Shown in pieces: positions 1,657 to 62,372 of a stretch of DNA of 64,000 nt (position 1 is its first letter; each line of letters begins with the position of its first letter). The stretch is taken from assembly GCF_014489495.1 (NCBI RefSeq), contig NZ_CP060780.1, forward strand, positions 2,057,001-2,121,000, read 5' to 3'. Below the pieces are notes generated by a model. It had not been told where the DNA came from. It saw nothing but the letters and a program-made list of their open reading frames with translations, and did no database searches. The stretch is from Sphingomonas daechungensis. GTDB taxonomy: Bacteria; Pseudomonadota; Alphaproteobacteria; Sphingomonadales; Sphingomonadaceae. Position numbers and translations under genes: made by a program.

Positions 1657-4388
<2,732 letters not shown>

Positions 4389-4966: not shown

Positions 4967-7900
4967 TCAACACTGCAATTGGAACAGCGCCGGTCCGCTG
5001 GTGTAAAGTAGCGCCGCGCGAACCTCCCGCCCGGGAAGATGACCCGCAATGCGCCGGTGTAGGCCTTCATCTGGGACTGGTGCGGACCGGGTATTTCGCC
5101 TTCCGATGCTGGCACCTGGCCAGTCTTGAAGTCGATGACCGAGACGCGATCCTTCTCAACCAACAGCCGATCCACGGTTCCGGCAACGACCGTGCCGTCC
5201 GGCAGTGTCGCGGCGAGAGGTGCTTCAGCGAGAGAGCCGTCTCCGAACAGGGCGGCGAACCGCACATCCGACAACACTTCGCAAACGGTATCCGCAATCT
5301 CCGTCCGCCTCCCCTCCTCGGTGACGCCCGCGGAGCGCTCAAGCCAGCGCAGCGCAGTCGCGTGCCGGTGCTTCGGATCCACATCAGCCAACCGTTCGAG
5401 AAGTTGGTGGATCAACGTTCCCGCTCGGCGGCGGCGCGCATCGTTTCACTCGGCGGCGGCAAGGCCTCCCGGTCTTCGGCGATCGCGGACGGAGCGAGCG
5501 GCCGCGGAGGGCGGGACTCCGGAGGCGCCGGGGCTGTGGCCCAAGCGGGAATCGGCGGGTTCGGAAGTGCCGCGGCGTCCGCTTTCGGTTTGACTGCACT
5601 GACAGGAACTGAGCCGCTGTAACGCAGGACCTGCCCCATGGCTCTTCGACCACGGGTTCGGCCCCAAGCGAGACCAGCGCCCGCTCGACGCTGCTGTGCC
5701 AGCAGTTCTCAGGCCTGACGCCGTCCTTCGTTTTCGGCTTGATCCCGGCGATGACCAGCCGCTCCTCGGCGCGAGTCAGGCCGACGTAAAGGAGCCGCCA
5801 ATGCTCTTGAAGGTCCCGAGCTTCCTCGACTGCGATGAGTTCGCTGAAGGGAGAGACACGCTCCGCCTTGCGCGGGCGGATAAGCGGGACTTCCCCACTC
5901 CTGTTATCGGGAAATCCAGAGTACGCTGAACGCCGCCCAGGCGCGCCGGATCGGCCGTTGCGTCGGCGAGAATGACCACCGGAGCTTCCAGCCCCTTCGC
6001 GCCGTGCACCGTCATCACCCGCGCCGCGTTGGTCGGCGCCGAAGGGTCACGCTTGATCTCCACCTCCCCACGCGAAAACCAGTCCAGAAAGCGGTCGAGC
6101 GACGCAATCTCCTGCTGCTCGAAATCGAGTGCGCTCGTCAGCAGCTCGTCGATCGGATCCCGCGCGGCCAACCCGAGCCGACCGTAAAGCTTCCTTCGCC
6201 CGTCCATCGGCCGCTGAGGATCGTCTCCAGGAAGCGGTGCGGTGTCGTGAAATCGGCCATCGCCAGAAGCTGGCCAAGCTCGTCCTCGTTTTCCTGAACT
6301 CGGGCCGGGTATCCGCGCGTTCCCCAGGCGCTGCCAGAGCGAAATGCGGTCGCGGCCGTGCGCTAGCTCGAGAAGCAGTTCCTGGCTCCAGCCAAGCAGC
6401 GGCGAGACCAACAGGTTGGCGAGGTTGAGATCGTCGAGCGGTTGCGCGGCGAATGCAATCGTCGCCAGCAAGTCCTTGACCGCCAGTGGCTCCTGAAGGT
6501 GCAGGCGGTCGATACCCGCCACCGGCACGCCCTCCTCGAACAGGCGCGCCACGATGAGCGACGCCAGCTCGCCTCGGCTTCTCACGAGGATCAGGACGTC
6601 TCCCGCGCTGAGCGGCCGCTTGGTCGACGCCAGCACGGGCCCTCATCGATCCAGCTGCGAACCTGCCGGGCAAGGGCACTGGCGTAACGGCGGGCATCCT
6701 CGCCTAGCCAGCCTTCCTCGCCCTCTTCCTCCTCCACACCGTCCTCGACGGAGAAGGGCGTCCAGAGTTCGACAATCCCGGGCCTGCGGTCGAAGTGTGC
6801 CTGATGTTGGTTTGGCCGCTCCGGGAGGCCCATTCGTTCGTATCCAACGTCGGCGATCACCGCATCGACGACGTCAAGCACGGCAGGCGCGGAGCGATAG
6901 CTGGCCTCGATCGATAGATCGCGGAATTCCAGCGCGGCTGCCTCATCGTCATCGTCGGCAAACAGCATGCCGGAGGCGAAGCGGGCGCTGGACGATTGCT
7001 TGCGGACCCATTCGCGAGCGCGGCGGAACTCGTTCGGGTCGGTGCCCTGGAAACCGAAAATCGCCTGCTTGAAGTCGCCGACCATGAAGAGGGTGCGATT
7101 GCGGTCCTCGCGAGCGCCCGAGCCGGCGAAGAACTCACCCGCAAGCGCCTGCACGATCTCCCACTGCTCGCGGTTGGTGTCCTGGCTTTCGTCGACGAGA
7201 ATATGGTCGGTGCGGCGATCAAGCTTGTAGCGCACCCACTCACTCATCCCGGCGTAGCCAGAAGCGCGCGGGTCCAGGCGATCAGGTCGTTGAAGTCGGC
7301 AACACCTGCGCTCCGCTTCGCCGCGGAATAGGCGATGGCGAAGGCCTGCCCGCCCGGAGCCCCGCCGCCATGTCGGCCGCCAGGCGAACGCCGTTCTGGA
7401 CGGCGAGCAACTCGCTGACGAGGTTGGCAAGCCGACCGGCATGCTCTTCGTAATTGGGCTCAGCCTTCGTCTGTCCCGGCGAGACCTTCAGCGTGTCCTT
7501 GTCGGTGAGGACGACTTTCCTGATCTCGGTGAGCGAGGCGGCACGTTCGATCGGCGTCAGGGAAAGCCAGCGCTCGATGACGTCCGCATGGCCAAGCCCG
7601 GTCGACGCTCCCAGCGCCGGTTTGCGTCGGCGATGGCGCGCAACAGATCGCGATCGATGCGGTCGTCGCCGAGATGATGAGCGAAGAAATCGTCGACCGA
7701 GGCATCGGGCAATCCCATTGTGCCGCGAATGAACGGCTCGATCGAATCCGGTGCGCCGAGCTTCGCCATTGCATCCGCAGCGTGCGCACAAAGCATCAAG
7801 TACCGGACCGCGCCTTCCTCGCCGAGGCGAAGGCTCAGGCATTGCACGTCCCCGATCAGCCGTTCGTCGCCCTTGGCTTCAGCGTCCGCCAGAAGGTTGG

Positions 7901-8389
7901 CCAGTGTCGTGCGGGCCAGCTCCTGCTCCGCCCTGCCCTCGATCGGCGCAAAGCCGGGGGTGATCCCGCCTCCGCGGGGAAAGCCGCAAGCAGAGCCTGC
8001 GCGAAGCTGTGGATGGTCTGGATACGAAGGCCTCCAGGCGCTTCCAGGACCTTGGCGAACAGCCTACGAGCGCGTTCACGGCTATTCGGACCGGGGTCGG
8101 CGCGAAGGGCCATCAGGTCCTGCCCAAGCTCCGCATCCTTCATCCGAACCCAGGCGGCCAGGCGCGCCCCGATGCGGTTCGCCATCTCCGCCGCGCCGGC
8201 TTTCGTGAAAGTCAGGCAAAGGATCGTCTCGGGATCGGCGCCATTCAGCAGCAGGCTGAGGACGCGGCCAGTCAGGACCTGAGTCTTGCCCGATCCCGCC
8301 GACGCCGACACCGCGGCATGTACGTTGGGATCAACCGCAGCGGCCTGAGCACCCTGGAGGGACGGCAAAGGCTTGAACCGGCGCCCCAT
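4967..8389 (-). CDS. addA: AddA, helicase-nuclease subunit of the AddAB recombination enzyme (many frameshifts)
   Basis: With AddB, resects double-strand breaks for RecA loading. The start is ATG 8389 (MGRRFKPLPSLQGAQ). UvrD-type helicase motifs follow in order across several frames: ASAGSGKTQVLTGRV (Walker A), LCLTFTKAGAAEMANR, IQTIHSFAQALL, DHILVDESQDTNREQW (Walker B), FMVGDFKQAIFGFQG, VMTVHGAKGLEAPVV and LLYVGLTRAEERL. The RecB-like nuclease segment VSVIDFKTGQVP lies near the C terminus. At least eleven single-base losses, nearly all in G/C runs (around 5031, 5415, 5636, 5895, 6230, 6305, 6640, 7250, 7353, 7611, 7970), break the frame; restoring them gives a continuous protein of about 1,145 residues ending at 4967. 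Such density in a gene with all motifs intact argues for base-calling errors, though genuine decay cannot be fully excluded from sequence alone. Confidence 0.9.
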
Positions 8390-58621: not shown

Positions 58622-59673
58622 TCAGGCGCCGTCGGTTTCCAGCAGCTTGTGGCGTTTCAGGGCGTGGCGAAGCTGGTCGTAGCTCAGATTGAGGGCGGCG
58701 GCCGTCGCACGCTGGTTGAAGCGATTGGCGGCAAGCGCGTTCTGCAGGAGGGCACGCTCGTAGTCTGACACCGCGGCCCGGAAGTCACTGGTCGATGCTG
58801 GCGGAGGTGCCGACGACGGACTTTCCGCGCTCGGAACTGGCTCCTCCGAAACTTTGGCGTCCGTATGCGACGGGTGGGTGACCTGCCCGATCGCCGGTGC
58901 CCACGGAGAATGGAATGGATCGAACTGTATGGCGTCGATGTCCCGCTCGGGATCCTCCCAACGATAGACCGCGCGCTCCACCACATTCCTGAGCTCGCGG
59001 ACGTTTCCCGGCCAATTATAGGCTTCGAGCTCCGCGACGGCCCGGGGAGAAAAGCCCGGCCAGTTGGGCCACTCCAGCTCCACCGCCATCCGCCGACCAA
59101 AATGATCCGCCAGCAGCGATATATCTCCCGTCCGTGCGCGCAGCGGCGGGAGGGTCACCACCTCGAACGACAAGCGATCAAGCAAGTCAGCCCGAAAATG
59201 ACCTTTGTCGACCTGGAGCGGAAGGTTTTCGTTGGTCGCTGCGACGATCCGGACATCGACCGAAATCGGTTTGGACGCTCCTATGCGGGTAATCTCGCCG
59301 TACTCCACCGCGCGCAGCAGGCGGTCCTGTGCAGGCATCGACAAGGTTCCGAGTTCGTCGAGGAAGAGCGTTCCGCCGTCCGCCTCTTCGAACCGTCCGT
59401 GGCGAGTCTTCGACGCGCCGGTGAAGCTGCCGGCCTCGTGCCCGAACAATTCGGCTTCGATCAGCGTCTCGGGAAGCGCCGCGCAGTTCATCACTACCAG
59501 GGGCCCGCCCAGCGCGACGACAAGTGGTGAAGACGTTCGGCGATCAACTCCTTGCCTGTGCCGCGCTCGCCAATGACCAGGACCGGGCGATTAAGGGGCG
59601 CCGCACGGCTCGCCCGCTCGACAGCATCGAGAAAGGCCAGGCTCTGCCCGACGAACTGATTTGTCCGCTCCAT
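58622..59673 (-). CDS. pspF: Sigma-54 activator PspF (one-base frameshift)
   Basis: AAA+ enhancer-binding protein without an N-terminal receiver domain, as in PspF. Start ATG 59673 ([18 protein letters not shown]), Walker [23 protein letters not shown]-type loop as [20 protein letters not shown], Walker [13 protein letters not shown], and a C-terminal Fis-type HTH ([18 protein letters not shown]). The loop reads GSFTGA instead of GAFTGA. One base is missing in GGGG at 59500-59503; correction gives [15 protein letters not shown]. About 350 residues with a longer linker than E. coli PspF. Divergent from pspA. Confidence 0.93.
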
Positions 59674-59837: not shown

Positions 59838-60506
59838 ATGGGTATATTCTCTCGCACGAGGGATATCTTCGCGGCGAACATGACGGAGCTTCTCGACCGG
59901 TCCGAAGACCCGGCGAAGATGATCCGCATGATCATCCTCGAAATGGAAGAAACGTTGGTGGAAGTCCGCGCCAGTGCCGCGCGCTCCATTGCCGATGGCA
60001 AGGAAATGCGCCGGGCGCTGAAGCGCCTTGAGGAGCTTCAATCGAGCTGGACCGAGAAGGCCGAGCTTGCACTGAGCAAGGACCGCGAGGACCTTGCCAA
60101 GGCTGCGCTGATCGAGCGCCAGAAGGCTGCCGACATGGCCGGCGGACTTCGTGCCGAGATCGATCAGATCGACGAGACCCTCAAGACCTACGAAGCGGAT
60201 ATCGCCAAGCTGCAGGGCAAATTGCGCGAGGCGCGTGCCCGGCAAAATGCTATTGCGGCTCGCCTCGAGAGTGCGGTCACGCGTGCCAAGGCCCGTGAGA
60301 TCATGCACGGCGGACGGACGGAAGATGCCTTCTCGAAGTTCGAGGTGCTGGAACGCCGGGCCGACTTCGCGGAGGGTCGTGCCGATGCGCTCGGCATGAC
60401 CGGGCCGAAGAGCCTCGAGGAAGAGATTGCCGAATTGCGTGCGTCCGAACAGGTCGACGCAGAACTGGAAGCCATGAAGGCGGCGCTGAAGCGCAAAGGG
60501 GATTAG
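59838..60506 (+). CDS. pspA: Phage shock protein PspA
   Basis: ESCRT-III-like membrane-protecting protein. Coiled-coil over most of the 222 residues; family opening MGIFSRTRDIFAANMTELLD with the amphipathic N-terminal helix, EDPAKMIRMIILEMEETLVE, and a C-terminal ERRADFAEGRADALG segment. Intact. First gene after the sigma-54 promoter. Binds and inhibits PspF in known systems. Confidence 0.97.
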   Translation: MGIFSRTRDIFAANMTELLDRSEDPAKMIRMIILEMEETLVEVRASAARSIADGKEMRRALKRLEELQSSWTEKAELALSKDREDLAKAALIERQKAADMAGGLRAEIDQIDETLKTYEADIAKLQGKLREARARQNAIAARLESAVTRAKAREIMHGGRTEDAFSKFEVLERRADFAEGRADALGMTGPKSLEEEIAELRASEQVDAELEAMKAALKRKGD

Positions 60507-60509
60507 AGA

Positions 60510-60818
60510 ATGGAAGGTGTGATTGGTCCGATCGTCATATGCACGATCCTGTTCATCGGGCTCCCGTGGATCCTGTTCCACTACATCACGAAGTGGAAAA
60601 CGGCCGCGACGATTACCGGTGCCGATGAGAAGTTGCTGGATGAACTTTACGATCTCGCACGCCGCCTGGACGACAGGCTGTGCTCGATCGAACGGATCAT
60701 GACTGCCGAGAACCCGAACTGGAAGCAGCAGTGCCTGCCGGACGCAACCGACCGCATCGCTGACGAGCTTAGCCAGGTCCGCAACCGTGGTCGCAGCCGC
60801 GCCCGGACAGGAGAATGA
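60510..60818 (+). CDS. pspB: Phage shock protein PspB
   Basis: One N-terminal span (VIGPIVICTILFIGLPWILF) and a cytoplasmic leucine-zipper-like region; RLDDRLCSIERIMTAENPNW is the PspB block. 102 residues, somewhat longer than E. coli PspB. The C-terminal Arg-rich tail RNRGRSRARTGE is extra. Overlaps the pspC start by four bases. Confidence 0.93.
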   Translation: MEGVIGPIVICTILFIGLPWILFHYITKWKTAATITGADEKLLDELYDLARRLDDRLCSIERIMTAENPNWKQQCLPDATDRIADELSQVRNRGRSRARTGE

Positions 60819-61210
60819 ACGTGGCGTACCAGCCTCCCAGCCGGACCCGGTTCTACCGGGACAAGCGCAACGGCAAAGTCATGGGCATTTGCGCCGGCAT
60901 CGCCGACTATACCGGCTTCGACATCAGCCTGGTCCGGATCACGATGATCGCCGCCGTCTTTCTCAGCAGCGGGTCGATCCTGCCGGTTTATTTCATTGCC
61001 GGTTGGTTGGTCCCCGAACAGCCGAGGGAGCTCGAAGGCACGGATGTCCAGGAGCGCGAATTCTGGCAGTCGGTTCGGCGGTCACCCGCCCGCACCGCGC
61101 GAGATATCCGCCTGCGGTTGAAGGACATCGATCGCCGGCTTGCCGACGTCGAAAGTTACGTCACGACCGAAAACCGTTCGCTTGCTCGGGAAATCGAGCA
61201 GCTTCGCTAG
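60815..61210 (+). CDS. pspC: Phage shock protein PspC
   Basis: PspC domain FYRDKRNGKVMGICAGIADY and LVRITMIAAVFLSSGSILPV with one membrane span, then a helical cytoplasmic tail ending RRLADVESYVTTENRSLARE-IEQLR. 131 residues. With PspB senses membrane stress and releases PspF from PspA. The tail resembles that of the following small proteins. Confidence 0.95.
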   Translation: MNVAYQPPSRTRFYRDKRNGKVMGICAGIADYTGFDISLVRITMIAAVFLSSGSILPVYFIAGWLVPEQPRELEGTDVQEREFWQSVRRSPARTARDIRLRLKDIDRRLADVESYVTTENRSLAREIEQLR

Positions 61211-61235
61211 TCGTCATCAGGGGTTGGAGGATTTC

Positions 61236-61502
61236 ATGAACCTTGCGGTGCTCATTCCGATTGCGGGCATTGCTGGCGGCGTCGCAATCATGTGGATGTG
61301 CTTCAAGTATCTGGAGCTACGGATCACCGACCGCAAAGCGCTCGACGACGTGGCCCGTGAAACTGCCGAGAAGAAGCGGCTGGAGGCGCGCGTCGCCATC
61401 CTGGAGCGGATCGTAACGGATCGCGGTATCCAAACCGCCGACCAGATCGACGCCTTGGTGGAACGCGACGCGCTCGACCGTGAATCCGAACAGGTTCGGT
61501 AA
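61236..61502 (+). CDS. PspB-like small membrane/coiled-coil protein 1
   Basis: 88 residues: one N-terminal span (VLIPIAGIAGGVAIMWMCF) then a charged helix with LEARVAILERIVTDRG and ADQIDALVER. No named family recognised beyond PspB resemblance. GGAGG lies seven bases before ATG 61236. Part of the psp run on the plus strand; 25 bp after pspC. Confidence 0.8.
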   Translation: MNLAVLIPIAGIAGGVAIMWMCFKYLELRITDRKALDDVARETAEKKRLEARVAILERIVTDRGIQTADQIDALVERDALDRESEQVR

Positions 61503-61513
61503 CTAAGGGGAAT

Positions 61514-61855
61514 ATGACAATGGACGCAGAGATTTTGTCACTTTTGTCGAACCTGTTCCCGATGATCGCTGTCATCGTGACCGTCGCCGTGGCCGGATGG
61601 GTCTTCACGACCTGGCTCAGGATCAAGAACGGCTATCCGCTCGAAACGTCGTGGGGCACGCCGCTCCACCCATCCAACAGCCGCGAGAACGGCGAGCGGA
61701 TCAAGCTACTGACGAGTGAGAACGCACAACTCCGCGCAGAACTGAGCGCCATCAAGGACCGCCTAGAGACGGTCGAACGGATCGTCACCGACCAACCGCA
61801 CAGACTCGCTCGCGAAATCGATGCTCTCGCGATCGACAAAGGCGGAAACGCCTGA
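61514..61855 (+). CDS. PspB-like small membrane/coiled-coil protein 2
   Basis: 113 residues: N-terminal span (LFPMIAVIVTVAVAGWVF), a short loop (KNGYPLETSWGTPLHPSN), then a helix with IKDRLETVERIVTDQPHRLA and REIDALAI. The IVTD motif and LAREI ending match PspC's tail. TAAGGGGAA precedes the ATG. Overlaps the next start by one base. Confidence 0.8.
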   Translation: MTMDAEILSLLSNLFPMIAVIVTVAVAGWVFTTWLRIKNGYPLETSWGTPLHPSNSRENGERIKLLTSENAQLRAELSAIKDRLETVERIVTDQPHRLAREIDALAIDKGGNA

Positions 61856-62133
61856 TGAACAGCATCGCCAGCTGGATCTGGGTTCTCATCCCTCTCGCCG
61901 CGATCGGAATCGCGCCTTTCAAGATGTGGATTCGGGTCAAGGAAAAGCAGATCGAGGCGCAGACAAGCCTTGCTGCGGAGAAGAGCGCCCAATATGCCGC
62001 ACACGTCGAGCGCATCGAGGCGCGTCTTCGCGTGCTAGAGCAGATTGTGACCGACCGGGGCGTTGAGACGGCTGCCCAGATCGAGGCCCTGCGTGATGCG
62101 CCGCGTCCGGAGATTGGAGAGAAAGTTCGATGA
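61855..62133 (+). CDS. PspB-like small membrane/coiled-coil protein 3
   Basis: 92 residues: N-terminal span (WIWVLIPLAAIGIAPFKMWI), then IEARLRVLEQIVTDRG and ETAAQIEALRD. Closest to the 61236 protein, sharing IVTDRG and AxQI(D/E)AL. Its stop overlaps the next ATG by four bases. Confidence 0.8.
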   Translation: MNSIASWIWVLIPLAAIGIAPFKMWIRVKEKQIEAQTSLAAEKSAQYAAHVERIEARLRVLEQIVTDRGVETAAQIEALRDAPRPEIGEKVR

Positions 62134-62372
62134 ACAACCCCTTCGAGTTTGTTCTCATCATCATCGCGATGGTCTTCCTCTTCGCCTTGCTGAAGCGCCG
62201 GATGGAGAACGGTGACGGCCGCGGCCAGGAGCCCGCCGAGGAAAGCCGGGAGAACGCTCGGCTTCGGGACGAGGTTTCGGAACTGAAGGAGCGCATCAAG
62301 GTGCTCGAACGGATTACCGTTGAGAAGGAAAACAGCCTCTCGCGAGAGATCGAGGACCTTCGTAACCGGTAG
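62130..62372 (+). CDS. PspB-like small membrane/coiled-coil protein 4
   Basis: 80 residues: N-terminal span (FEFVLIIIAMVFLFALLKRR), then LKERIKVLERITVEKENSLS and REIEDLRNR, closest to the tail of PspC and the 61514 protein. Last gene of the psp run; no clear terminator before sufE 38 bp on. Confidence 0.8.
   Translation: MNNPFEFVLIIIAMVFLFALLKRRMENGDGRGQEPAEESRENARLRDEVSELKERIKVLERITVEKENSLSREIEDLRNR

Follow-up and report, generated by a model that had tools for sequence, protein, structure and literature searches.

Small single-span proteins encoded after pspABC in Sphingomonas daechungensis: a three-class family of candidate accessory Psp proteins

What do four additional small membrane proteins contribute to a psp gene cluster that already encodes PspB and PspC, the two sensor parts of this kind in textbook bacteria? 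The question arises from a stretch of 64,000 nucleotides of the Sphingomonas daechungensis genome (assembly GCF_014489495.1, contig NZ_CP060780.1, positions 2,057,001 to 2,121,000; the window), in which pspABC is followed by four intact small genes, here X1-X4, at 61236-62372, and it touches a widely studied membrane-stress response. An earlier note on this DNA had listed pspA, pspB and pspC and then four small genes, with positions that are borne out here, and had read the four as repeated duplications of a PspB-like module. As judged from sequence, X1-X4 and their counterparts in other genomes (together, the extras) form a single family that divides into three main classes, A, B and C, and are not simply copies of PspB; their most likely role is to pair, as membrane-anchored coiled coils, with the PspC tail and PspB. 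We favor, with moderate confidence, a reading in which they are accessory Psp proteins whose tails pair in the PspC/PspB network and tune release of the PspC tail; sphingomonads would then have a full set of sensor or adaptor parts. The anatomy of the extras, their ancestry and link to the PspC tail, their conservation, the purifying selection on them, and the co-occurrence of unlinked relatives with PspC were computed here. The features of the locus are as follows.

58622..59673, minus strand: pspF, divergent regulator gene, reading frame split near 59494 in assembly GCF_014489495.1
59778..59793, plus strand: sigma-54-like site, starting 60 bases upstream of pspA, with 9 of 10 consensus letters
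59838..60506, plus strand: pspA (TIGR02977, 262.7 bits, above cut-off)
60510..60818, plus strand: pspB (PF06667, 79 bits, and TIGR02976, 76.7 bits, both above cut-off), core motif from residue 53
60815..61210, plus strand: pspC with a C-terminal motif tail (TIGR02978, 122.6 bits, above cut-off), motif residues 105-130
61236..61502, plus strand: X1, class B one-span motif protein of 88 amino acids (PspB model 20.1 bits, cut-off 51.7)
61514..61855, plus strand: X2, class A one-span motif protein of 113 amino acids (PspC model 18.8 bits, cut-off 104)
61855..62133, plus strand: X3, class B one-span motif protein of 92 amino acids (PspB model 18.3 bits)
62130..62372, plus strand: X4, class C one-span motif protein of 80 amino acids (PspB model 18.6 bits), which ends the array, as is usual

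The core motif of these proteins was found exactly six times in the six frames of the 64-kb window, once each in PspB, the PspC tail, and X1-X4, and in none of 20 triplet-shuffled windows, although both it and the relaxed pattern described next were formulated after the proteins had been seen. The longer C-terminal pattern that the earlier note had attributed to all six proteins matches only X1, X2, and X3 exactly (three six-frame hits, none in 20 shuffles) and reaches X4 and PspC when relaxed (five hits, none in 20 shuffles); PspB fits only its first half, the core, so that the pattern is common to the extras and the PspC tail and is shared with PspB in part. X1-X4 do have the PspB-like layout of one N-terminal span followed by a charged helix, and where PspB has its own ending they carry IVT or ITV and then a PspC-like ending; the ending D-A-E-x-P-x-W-R that follows the core in many alphaproteobacterial PspB proteins is missing in all four. 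None of the four reaches the cut-off of the PspB model TIGR02976 (20.1, 12.4, 18.3, and 18.6 bits for X1-X4, respectively, versus 51.7), of PF06667 (cut-off 25.6; X1 16.5 and X4 13.4, with no hit listed for X2 and X3), or of the PspC model TIGR02978 (best 18.8 bits, for X2, versus 104).

The array is a general feature of the family to which this bacterium belongs. Window PspC, used as a query against a sample of 119 Sphingomonadaceae genomes, matched in 111, its own included, and 80 psp loci, the window locus among them, were examined, any open frame related to the window proteins being scored as an extra. Such genes follow pspC in 79 of the 80 loci, from one to six per locus (none in 1 locus, one in 10, two in 8, three in 30, four in 17, five in 9, and six in 5), and the sole locus without them (L054) has about 2.6 kb available after pspC; the array, which the earlier note had proposed to look for in other sphingomonads, is thus widely kept there. 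The total of 259 frames contains four that are halves of two class A genes, each split into two frames (L069, reverse complement, 3338-3660; L117, 3791-4080), and both of these loci are counted one too high. Gene number differs between close relatives, for example three extras in L181 and six in L187, so that the array changes members while keeping its place. Scanning public named genomes with class A confirmed at least 517 places, and the best 80 of them carry 74 titles from Sphingomonadales, five from proteobacterial metagenome-assembled genomes with no closer name, and one from Arthrobacter (L211); of these loci, 61 extend 2 kb or more past pspC, and every one of the 61, which were selected for having class A, carries two to six extras. 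By class A identity, the nearest among the matches listed are Sphingomonas edaphi (69%), S. deserti (67%), S. segetis (64%), and S. alba (60%). The class A gene of L211 (Arthrobacter sp. TPD3018) is sphingomonad-like, and that assembly is probably mislabeled or contaminated. Median ratios of nonsynonymous to synonymous substitution are 0.20 for class A (436 pairs), 0.16 for B (107), 0.11 for C (32), 0.14 for PspB (130), and 0.16 for PspC (212), from ungapped, mutually non-independent pairs of 72-97% identity in the named loci, and these values indicate that the extras are under purifying selection.

Clustering of 255 whole extras by blastp gave, at the chosen cut, groups of 80 (class A), 65 and 13 (class B), and 35, 34, and 3 (class C), with small rest groups, and looser cuts fuse the groups into three large ones. 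In a FastTree tree of 148 rows, which keeps only 84 columns and leaves 63 of 144 inner branches open, the labels A, B, B2, C, PspC, and other require 11 changes, against an average of 87 when shuffled. X1 and X3 fall inside one set of 44 rows (34 B, 7 B2, and 3 other) with support of 97, the sister of X3 being L069_x3 at 74% identity, whereas X2 is placed among the A rows and X4 nearest the C rows, giving the window the class order B-A-B-C. The earlier note had divided the proteins into two types, and while its grouping of X1 with X3 survives as class B, the distinctness of X2 and X4 makes the number of types three. All three classes are present in 42 of the 80 family loci, and class C stands last in 64 of the 69 loci having at least two clustered extras.

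The ancestry of the classes was assessed with hhalign profile pairs, for which the control was a shuffling of columns within heptad positions (30 shuffles per pair) together with a reversed control; the alignments had 80 rows for A, 78 for B, 72 for C, 71 for PspB, and 38 for the PspC tail, the last taken from 80 loci. Between classes the expectation values (E) were 3.5e-19 (A-B), 4e-21 (A-C), and 7e-17 (B-C); against the PspC tail they were 4.4e-8 (A), 1.5e-5 (B), and 1.7e-6 (C), and against PspB 2e-6 (A), 4.4e-5 (B), and 0.007 (C), with none of the 30 shuffles scoring as high in any of these pairs. For the PspC tail, scores of 41.3, 28.5, and 32.0 for A, B, and C compare with shuffle maxima of 19.6, 17.3, and 19.8 and reversed controls of 21.4, 15.0, and 17.5. 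The profiles thus link A, B, and C beyond what heptad-preserving shuffles attain, in agreement with the common ancestry that had been proposed for the extras. Duplication of a PspB-like module is unsupported as it had been worded, since class C has little PspB signal and all classes match the PspC tail.

That wording is further weakened by what the classes match best beyond the array: for each of them it is an unnamed one-span family whose genes are not linked to psp and which occurs in other Sphingomonadales as well as in further members of the phylum; it is because this family exists that the X proteins are judged to be something other than plain PspB copies. Class A itself is rare and weak outside the family (6 of 285 class-sample genomes at E 1e-3), and of the five cases inspected one (G152) is the PspC tail itself, one (G299) is a true pair of small genes lying some 80 kb away from pspC, and in the remaining three no gene of this kind is present. 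Other families of the order sample mostly give one weak match each, and among 19 loci from those families a small one-span motif gene adjoins pspC only in five loci of family f165. A profile built from eleven small one-span motif genes of other families (A5) has relatives in 28 of 299 phylum-sample genomes. When 18 unlinked relatives were aligned, their profile matched the array classes strongly, at E 3.5e-20, 6e-23, and 2e-26, and the PspC tail and PspB weakly, yet above 20 shuffles each. Five unlinked relatives and three class members gave no Pfam or NCBIfam model above cut-off, and PspB and PspC recur among the weak hits of these eight proteins beside unrelated coiled coils. No consistent partner was seen among neighbors of the unlinked relatives in the loci inspected; nearby genes resemble what we take to be rpoD, a GAF-type methionine sulfoxide reductase gene, tadA, or dut, with a presumed tadA-like gene in five genomes of family f180 (L322, L325, L332, L336, and L337).

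These relatives keep company with PspC. Identical handles and numbers recur in the paired searches for the relative and for PspC, which were accordingly taken to cover one set of genomes. PspC was above cut-off in 23 of an initial 24 chosen genomes. In the phylum sample outside the family (286 genomes after removal of 13 family genomes, PspC being called at E 1e-10), PspC is present in 14 of 15 A5 carriers versus 17 of 271 non-carriers (Fisher p 1.8e-14), the exception (G647) being a 134-residue frame without a hydrophobic segment, and in none of the 14 PspC-bearing carriers does the listed relative adjoin pspC. In the order sample outside the family (73 genomes), the relative occurs in 52 of 64 genomes with PspC versus 1 of 9 without (p 7e-5), and the one carrier without PspC, G439, is a genome that is 71% complete; in the 53 carriers the relative lies beside pspC in 10, all of family f165, and elsewhere in 41, with two having no listed place. 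Within the Sphingomonadaceae, seven of eight genomes lacking PspC also lack a class C match; the remaining genome, G082, does carry an array, and its contig stops immediately before pspC would be expected to start. This co-loss is not independent evidence, because the genes share an operon there. Linkage to psp inside the family and the presence of PspC in 14 of 15 and 52 of 53 carriers outside it both speak for a component of the Psp system.

A span-like segment is present near the N terminus in all of X1-X4, as the earlier note had claimed, and in 249 of the 255 extras, the best segment starting within 30 residues in all of them and a second span being found in none. Lysine and arginine average 0.10 in the up to 12 residues before the span, a stretch that is often short, which lowers this figure, and 2.97 in the 12 residues after it (255 extras), and by the positive-inside rule the X tails are probably cytoplasmic. 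When aligned on the core, PspB, the PspC tail, and classes A, B, and C follow one common ungapped a/d heptad register (376 proteins: 71, 76, 80, 77, and 72, respectively); because the rule used to choose the register favors hydrophobic residues at a/d, it is the conservation of letters, rather than the hydrophobicity, that counts as independent evidence. An asparagine at an a position is a mark of parallel paired helices, and one occupies a single such position in 78 of 80 class A proteins. Most of the invariant columns lie in the C-terminal helix motif held in common with the PspC tail and not in the span, and class A has further invariant positions directly after the span, where the conserved GYPLE...WG stretch of X2 is also positioned. 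An AlphaFold2 model of X2 from 32 sequences has helices at 3-38, 56-93, and 95-110. A sequence search of the PDB gave no convincing match for PspC (best E 0.86) or PspB (best E 0.073).

Some natural loci have a PspC that lacks the tail. In G040 (L308, 2806-4407), pspA is followed by a tail-less PspC of 88 amino acids and then by a B gene and a C gene, and pspB was not found within this locus; in two f165 loci (L298, 3075-4109; L302, 3302-4261), a full pspC is followed by a second, short, tail-less PspC and a small motif gene. A tail-less PspC beside small motif genes fits a detachable tail that is separately supplied. Two genomes of f51, another alphaproteobacterial family, have two one-span extras after pspC, one with a PspC-type and the other with a PspB-type ending (L177, 5326-5814; L178, 4563-5052); this pair, too, accords with a separable tail and is perhaps an independent gain. 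A second psp-like locus in G000:C1:2716000-2730000 (L172, approximately 6400-7914) comprises a second pspA, a second tailed pspC, and a small one-span gene with a truncated motif; the arrays of L061 and L309 likewise end in a small gene of this sort.

How might such proteins act? A paper of 2016 reportedly describes, to go by its title, an interaction of the PspB and PspC cytoplasmic domains that silences the response. PspB and PspC form a complex, and when the response is on, PspA is bound by the C-terminal domain of PspC, which lies in the cytoplasm, so that PspF is freed (PMC5596341, in the portion available); it is on this basis that we propose the X proteins as additional tails taking part in the same network of pairing. 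Each X protein would combine a single N-terminal span with a module of coiled coil and short helix equivalent to the C-terminal tail of PspC and, in part, to PspB. At rest the X tails would pair with the PspC tail, with PspB, and with one another, and in this way govern the ease with which the PspC tail comes free. Once membrane stress has freed it, the PspC tail, perhaps joined by similar X tails, would draw PspA away from PspF and retain it at the membrane. Several copies with differing spans and pairing faces could then give a graded or multi-input switch. The pairing, the choice of partners, and the regulatory effect we infer from the features described above.

A number of observations weigh against this reading or against parts of it. 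The C-PspB match is weak, with a score of 18.4 that exceeds the shuffle maximum of 12.8 and scarcely the reversed control of 18.0, and PspB compared directly with the PspC tail is not significant (score 14.4, with 1 of 30 shuffles as high), so that joint ancestry of all six proteins rests on the X proteins as a bridge. A crude g-e' charge score favors self-pairs (A-A 3.5, C-C 3.9, PspC-PspC 3.5) and is low for the mixed pairs PspC-C (0.3) and B-C (0.9); the better mixed pairs are PspC-B (2.9), A-C (2.8), and PspC-PspB (2.8), and the score as a whole is given little weight. The X2 model is of moderate quality (mean predicted local distance difference test, pLDDT, 75; predicted template modeling score 0.30), and that of PspC (pLDDT 55) is too poor for a comparison of tails. 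In Escherichia coli, binding of PspB to PspC is reported to be independent of both leucine zippers, and two PspC topologies have been suggested, one with the C-terminal part drawn in the periplasm (PMC3068692, in the text available). The Fisher tests ignore kinship, the 14 phylum carriers spanning five families (f146, f180, f193, f215, and f216) and four of four f161 genomes in the order sample lacking both PspC and the relative. Finally, the co-occurrence is one-way: outside the Sphingomonadaceae, a relative is missing from 12 of 64 PspC-bearing genomes of the order sample and from 17 of 31 of the phylum sample, and no match was obtained in the eight PspC-bearing genomes of f189 or in five of six of f193; Psp therefore does not need the relative in general.

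Three other explanations have to be set beside it. That the extras act on the bilayer or recruit PspA as scaffolds, in the manner of PspD or PspG and with no signaling via PspC, we regard as unlikely: small one-span proteins in variable number (0-6) in a stress operon would suit such effectors, and the co-occurrence with PspC would hold for them equally, but invariance concentrated in the PspC-tail-like helix motif rather than in the span, and a heptad register common to PspB and PspC, speak against this. Redundant copies of PspB that raise its dose without any new role are slightly less probable still. A published line does mention PspB duplicates in psp operons (PMC11237479, as far as its available text goes), all of X1-X4 hit the PspB model below cut-off, and classes A and B match the PspB profile above shuffles; against these stand a canonical pspB retained beside the extras in the window, three distinct classes kept across the family, a class C that barely matches PspB, the missing PspB ending in X1-X4, and an unlinked one-span family that matches the X proteins far more strongly than PspB does.

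A resemblance arising merely from charged helices behind a span is highly improbable. It draws on the Pfam hits of X1-X4, which include unrelated coiled coils with similar or better weak values (for X4, a KASH coiled coil at E 2.1e-4), whereas in 9 of 10 profile pairs no heptad-preserving shuffle scores as high as the real comparison, the core motif has six hits and no more in the window, and the extras keep one place across the family. A chance or coiled-coil look-alike was set aside on the profile shuffles and the core-motif count. The reading of X1-X4 as accessory Psp proteins that pair with PspC and PspB is the one that we retain.

The arrangement of the genes is consistent with production of X1-X4 from the pspABC unit under PspF, which is probable; the co-transcription that this implies, like the cytoplasmic side of the tails, we infer. 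Among neighboring extras, 94 of 180 gaps are exactly -1 or -4 bases, the distance from pspC to the first extra has a median of 30 bases (range 11-367), and in all 80 loci pspF lies divergently upstream of pspA. A sigma-54-like site scoring at least 8 precedes pspA in 19 of 80 loci versus 48 of 800 shuffles, and a stricter count gives 11 of 80 upstream of pspA and also 12 of 80 within the array region; given the 19 loci and the sites inside the array region, a sigma-54 site as a common signature was dropped as support. The locus in the window is the only one of the 80 family loci in which the N-terminal part of pspF lies in another frame, and since the parts share one frame in the other 79, intact copies exist; the split in the window may be an assembly error (the genome is 86.6% complete). 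The genes 3' of X4 are presumably sufE and a thioesterase gene, to judge from resemblance.

There is a wider possibility, which we put forward only tentatively and hold to be less than probable: that a detached PspC tail on one span is an unrecognized Psp component in several lineages of Pseudomonadota, usually present as one or two copies away from psp, and that in Sphingomonadaceae it was drawn into the operon and multiplied to as many as six, forming a combinatorial membrane coiled-coil switch. In such a switch, tails with different pairing faces would compete for PspC and PspA and would let one PspF regulon read several membrane states. The co-occurrence of unlinked relatives with PspC hints at a Psp component that stays below the cut-offs of the Pfam and NCBIfam models tested, and the many natural variants of the PspC tail on separate spans, in some cases next to a tail-less PspC, offer parts for finding the surfaces that hold PspC off or bind PspA and for examining what the spans sense.

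The earlier note knew of no description of such an array. Ravi et al. (2024; PMC11237479) devote one line to PspB duplicates in psp operons and describe a divergent PspB fused to PspC, so that such duplicates were already in print; our search of the literature, which did not extend to supplements, found no fuller account, and in that respect the statement holds. The main-text parts of that study available contain no classes, numbers, sphingomonad survey, or unlinked relatives, and a phyletic survey (PMC9239133) records, in its available sections, multiple copies of PspA and PspC and does not mention copies of PspB. What is new here is the unlinked family and its co-occurrence with PspC, the psp-operon duplicates being known. 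Expression of psp genes in Zymomonas is raised by ethanol and on xylose (PMC3495753, PMC8645129; also PMC11186258), with none tied to an X gene in the portions available, and in Qipengyuania psp genes are merely noted as present in the text available (PMC9241875).

Among known components, PspD and PspG of enterobacteria (PMC3068692) resemble the X proteins in being small extra Psp proteins, and no such family appears among the model hits of X1-X4. With PspB (TIGR02976, PF06667) the X proteins share the N-terminal span, the charged helix, the core motif in the same register, and the operon; they differ in their scores (12.4-20.1 bits versus 51.7) and in ending with a PspC-type pattern in place of the PspB ending. 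With the tail of PspC (TIGR02978) they share both the core motif and the short-helix pattern, ungapped, at E 4.4e-8 for class A, and they differ from PspC in lacking the PspC domain and in bearing the tail on a single span of their own.

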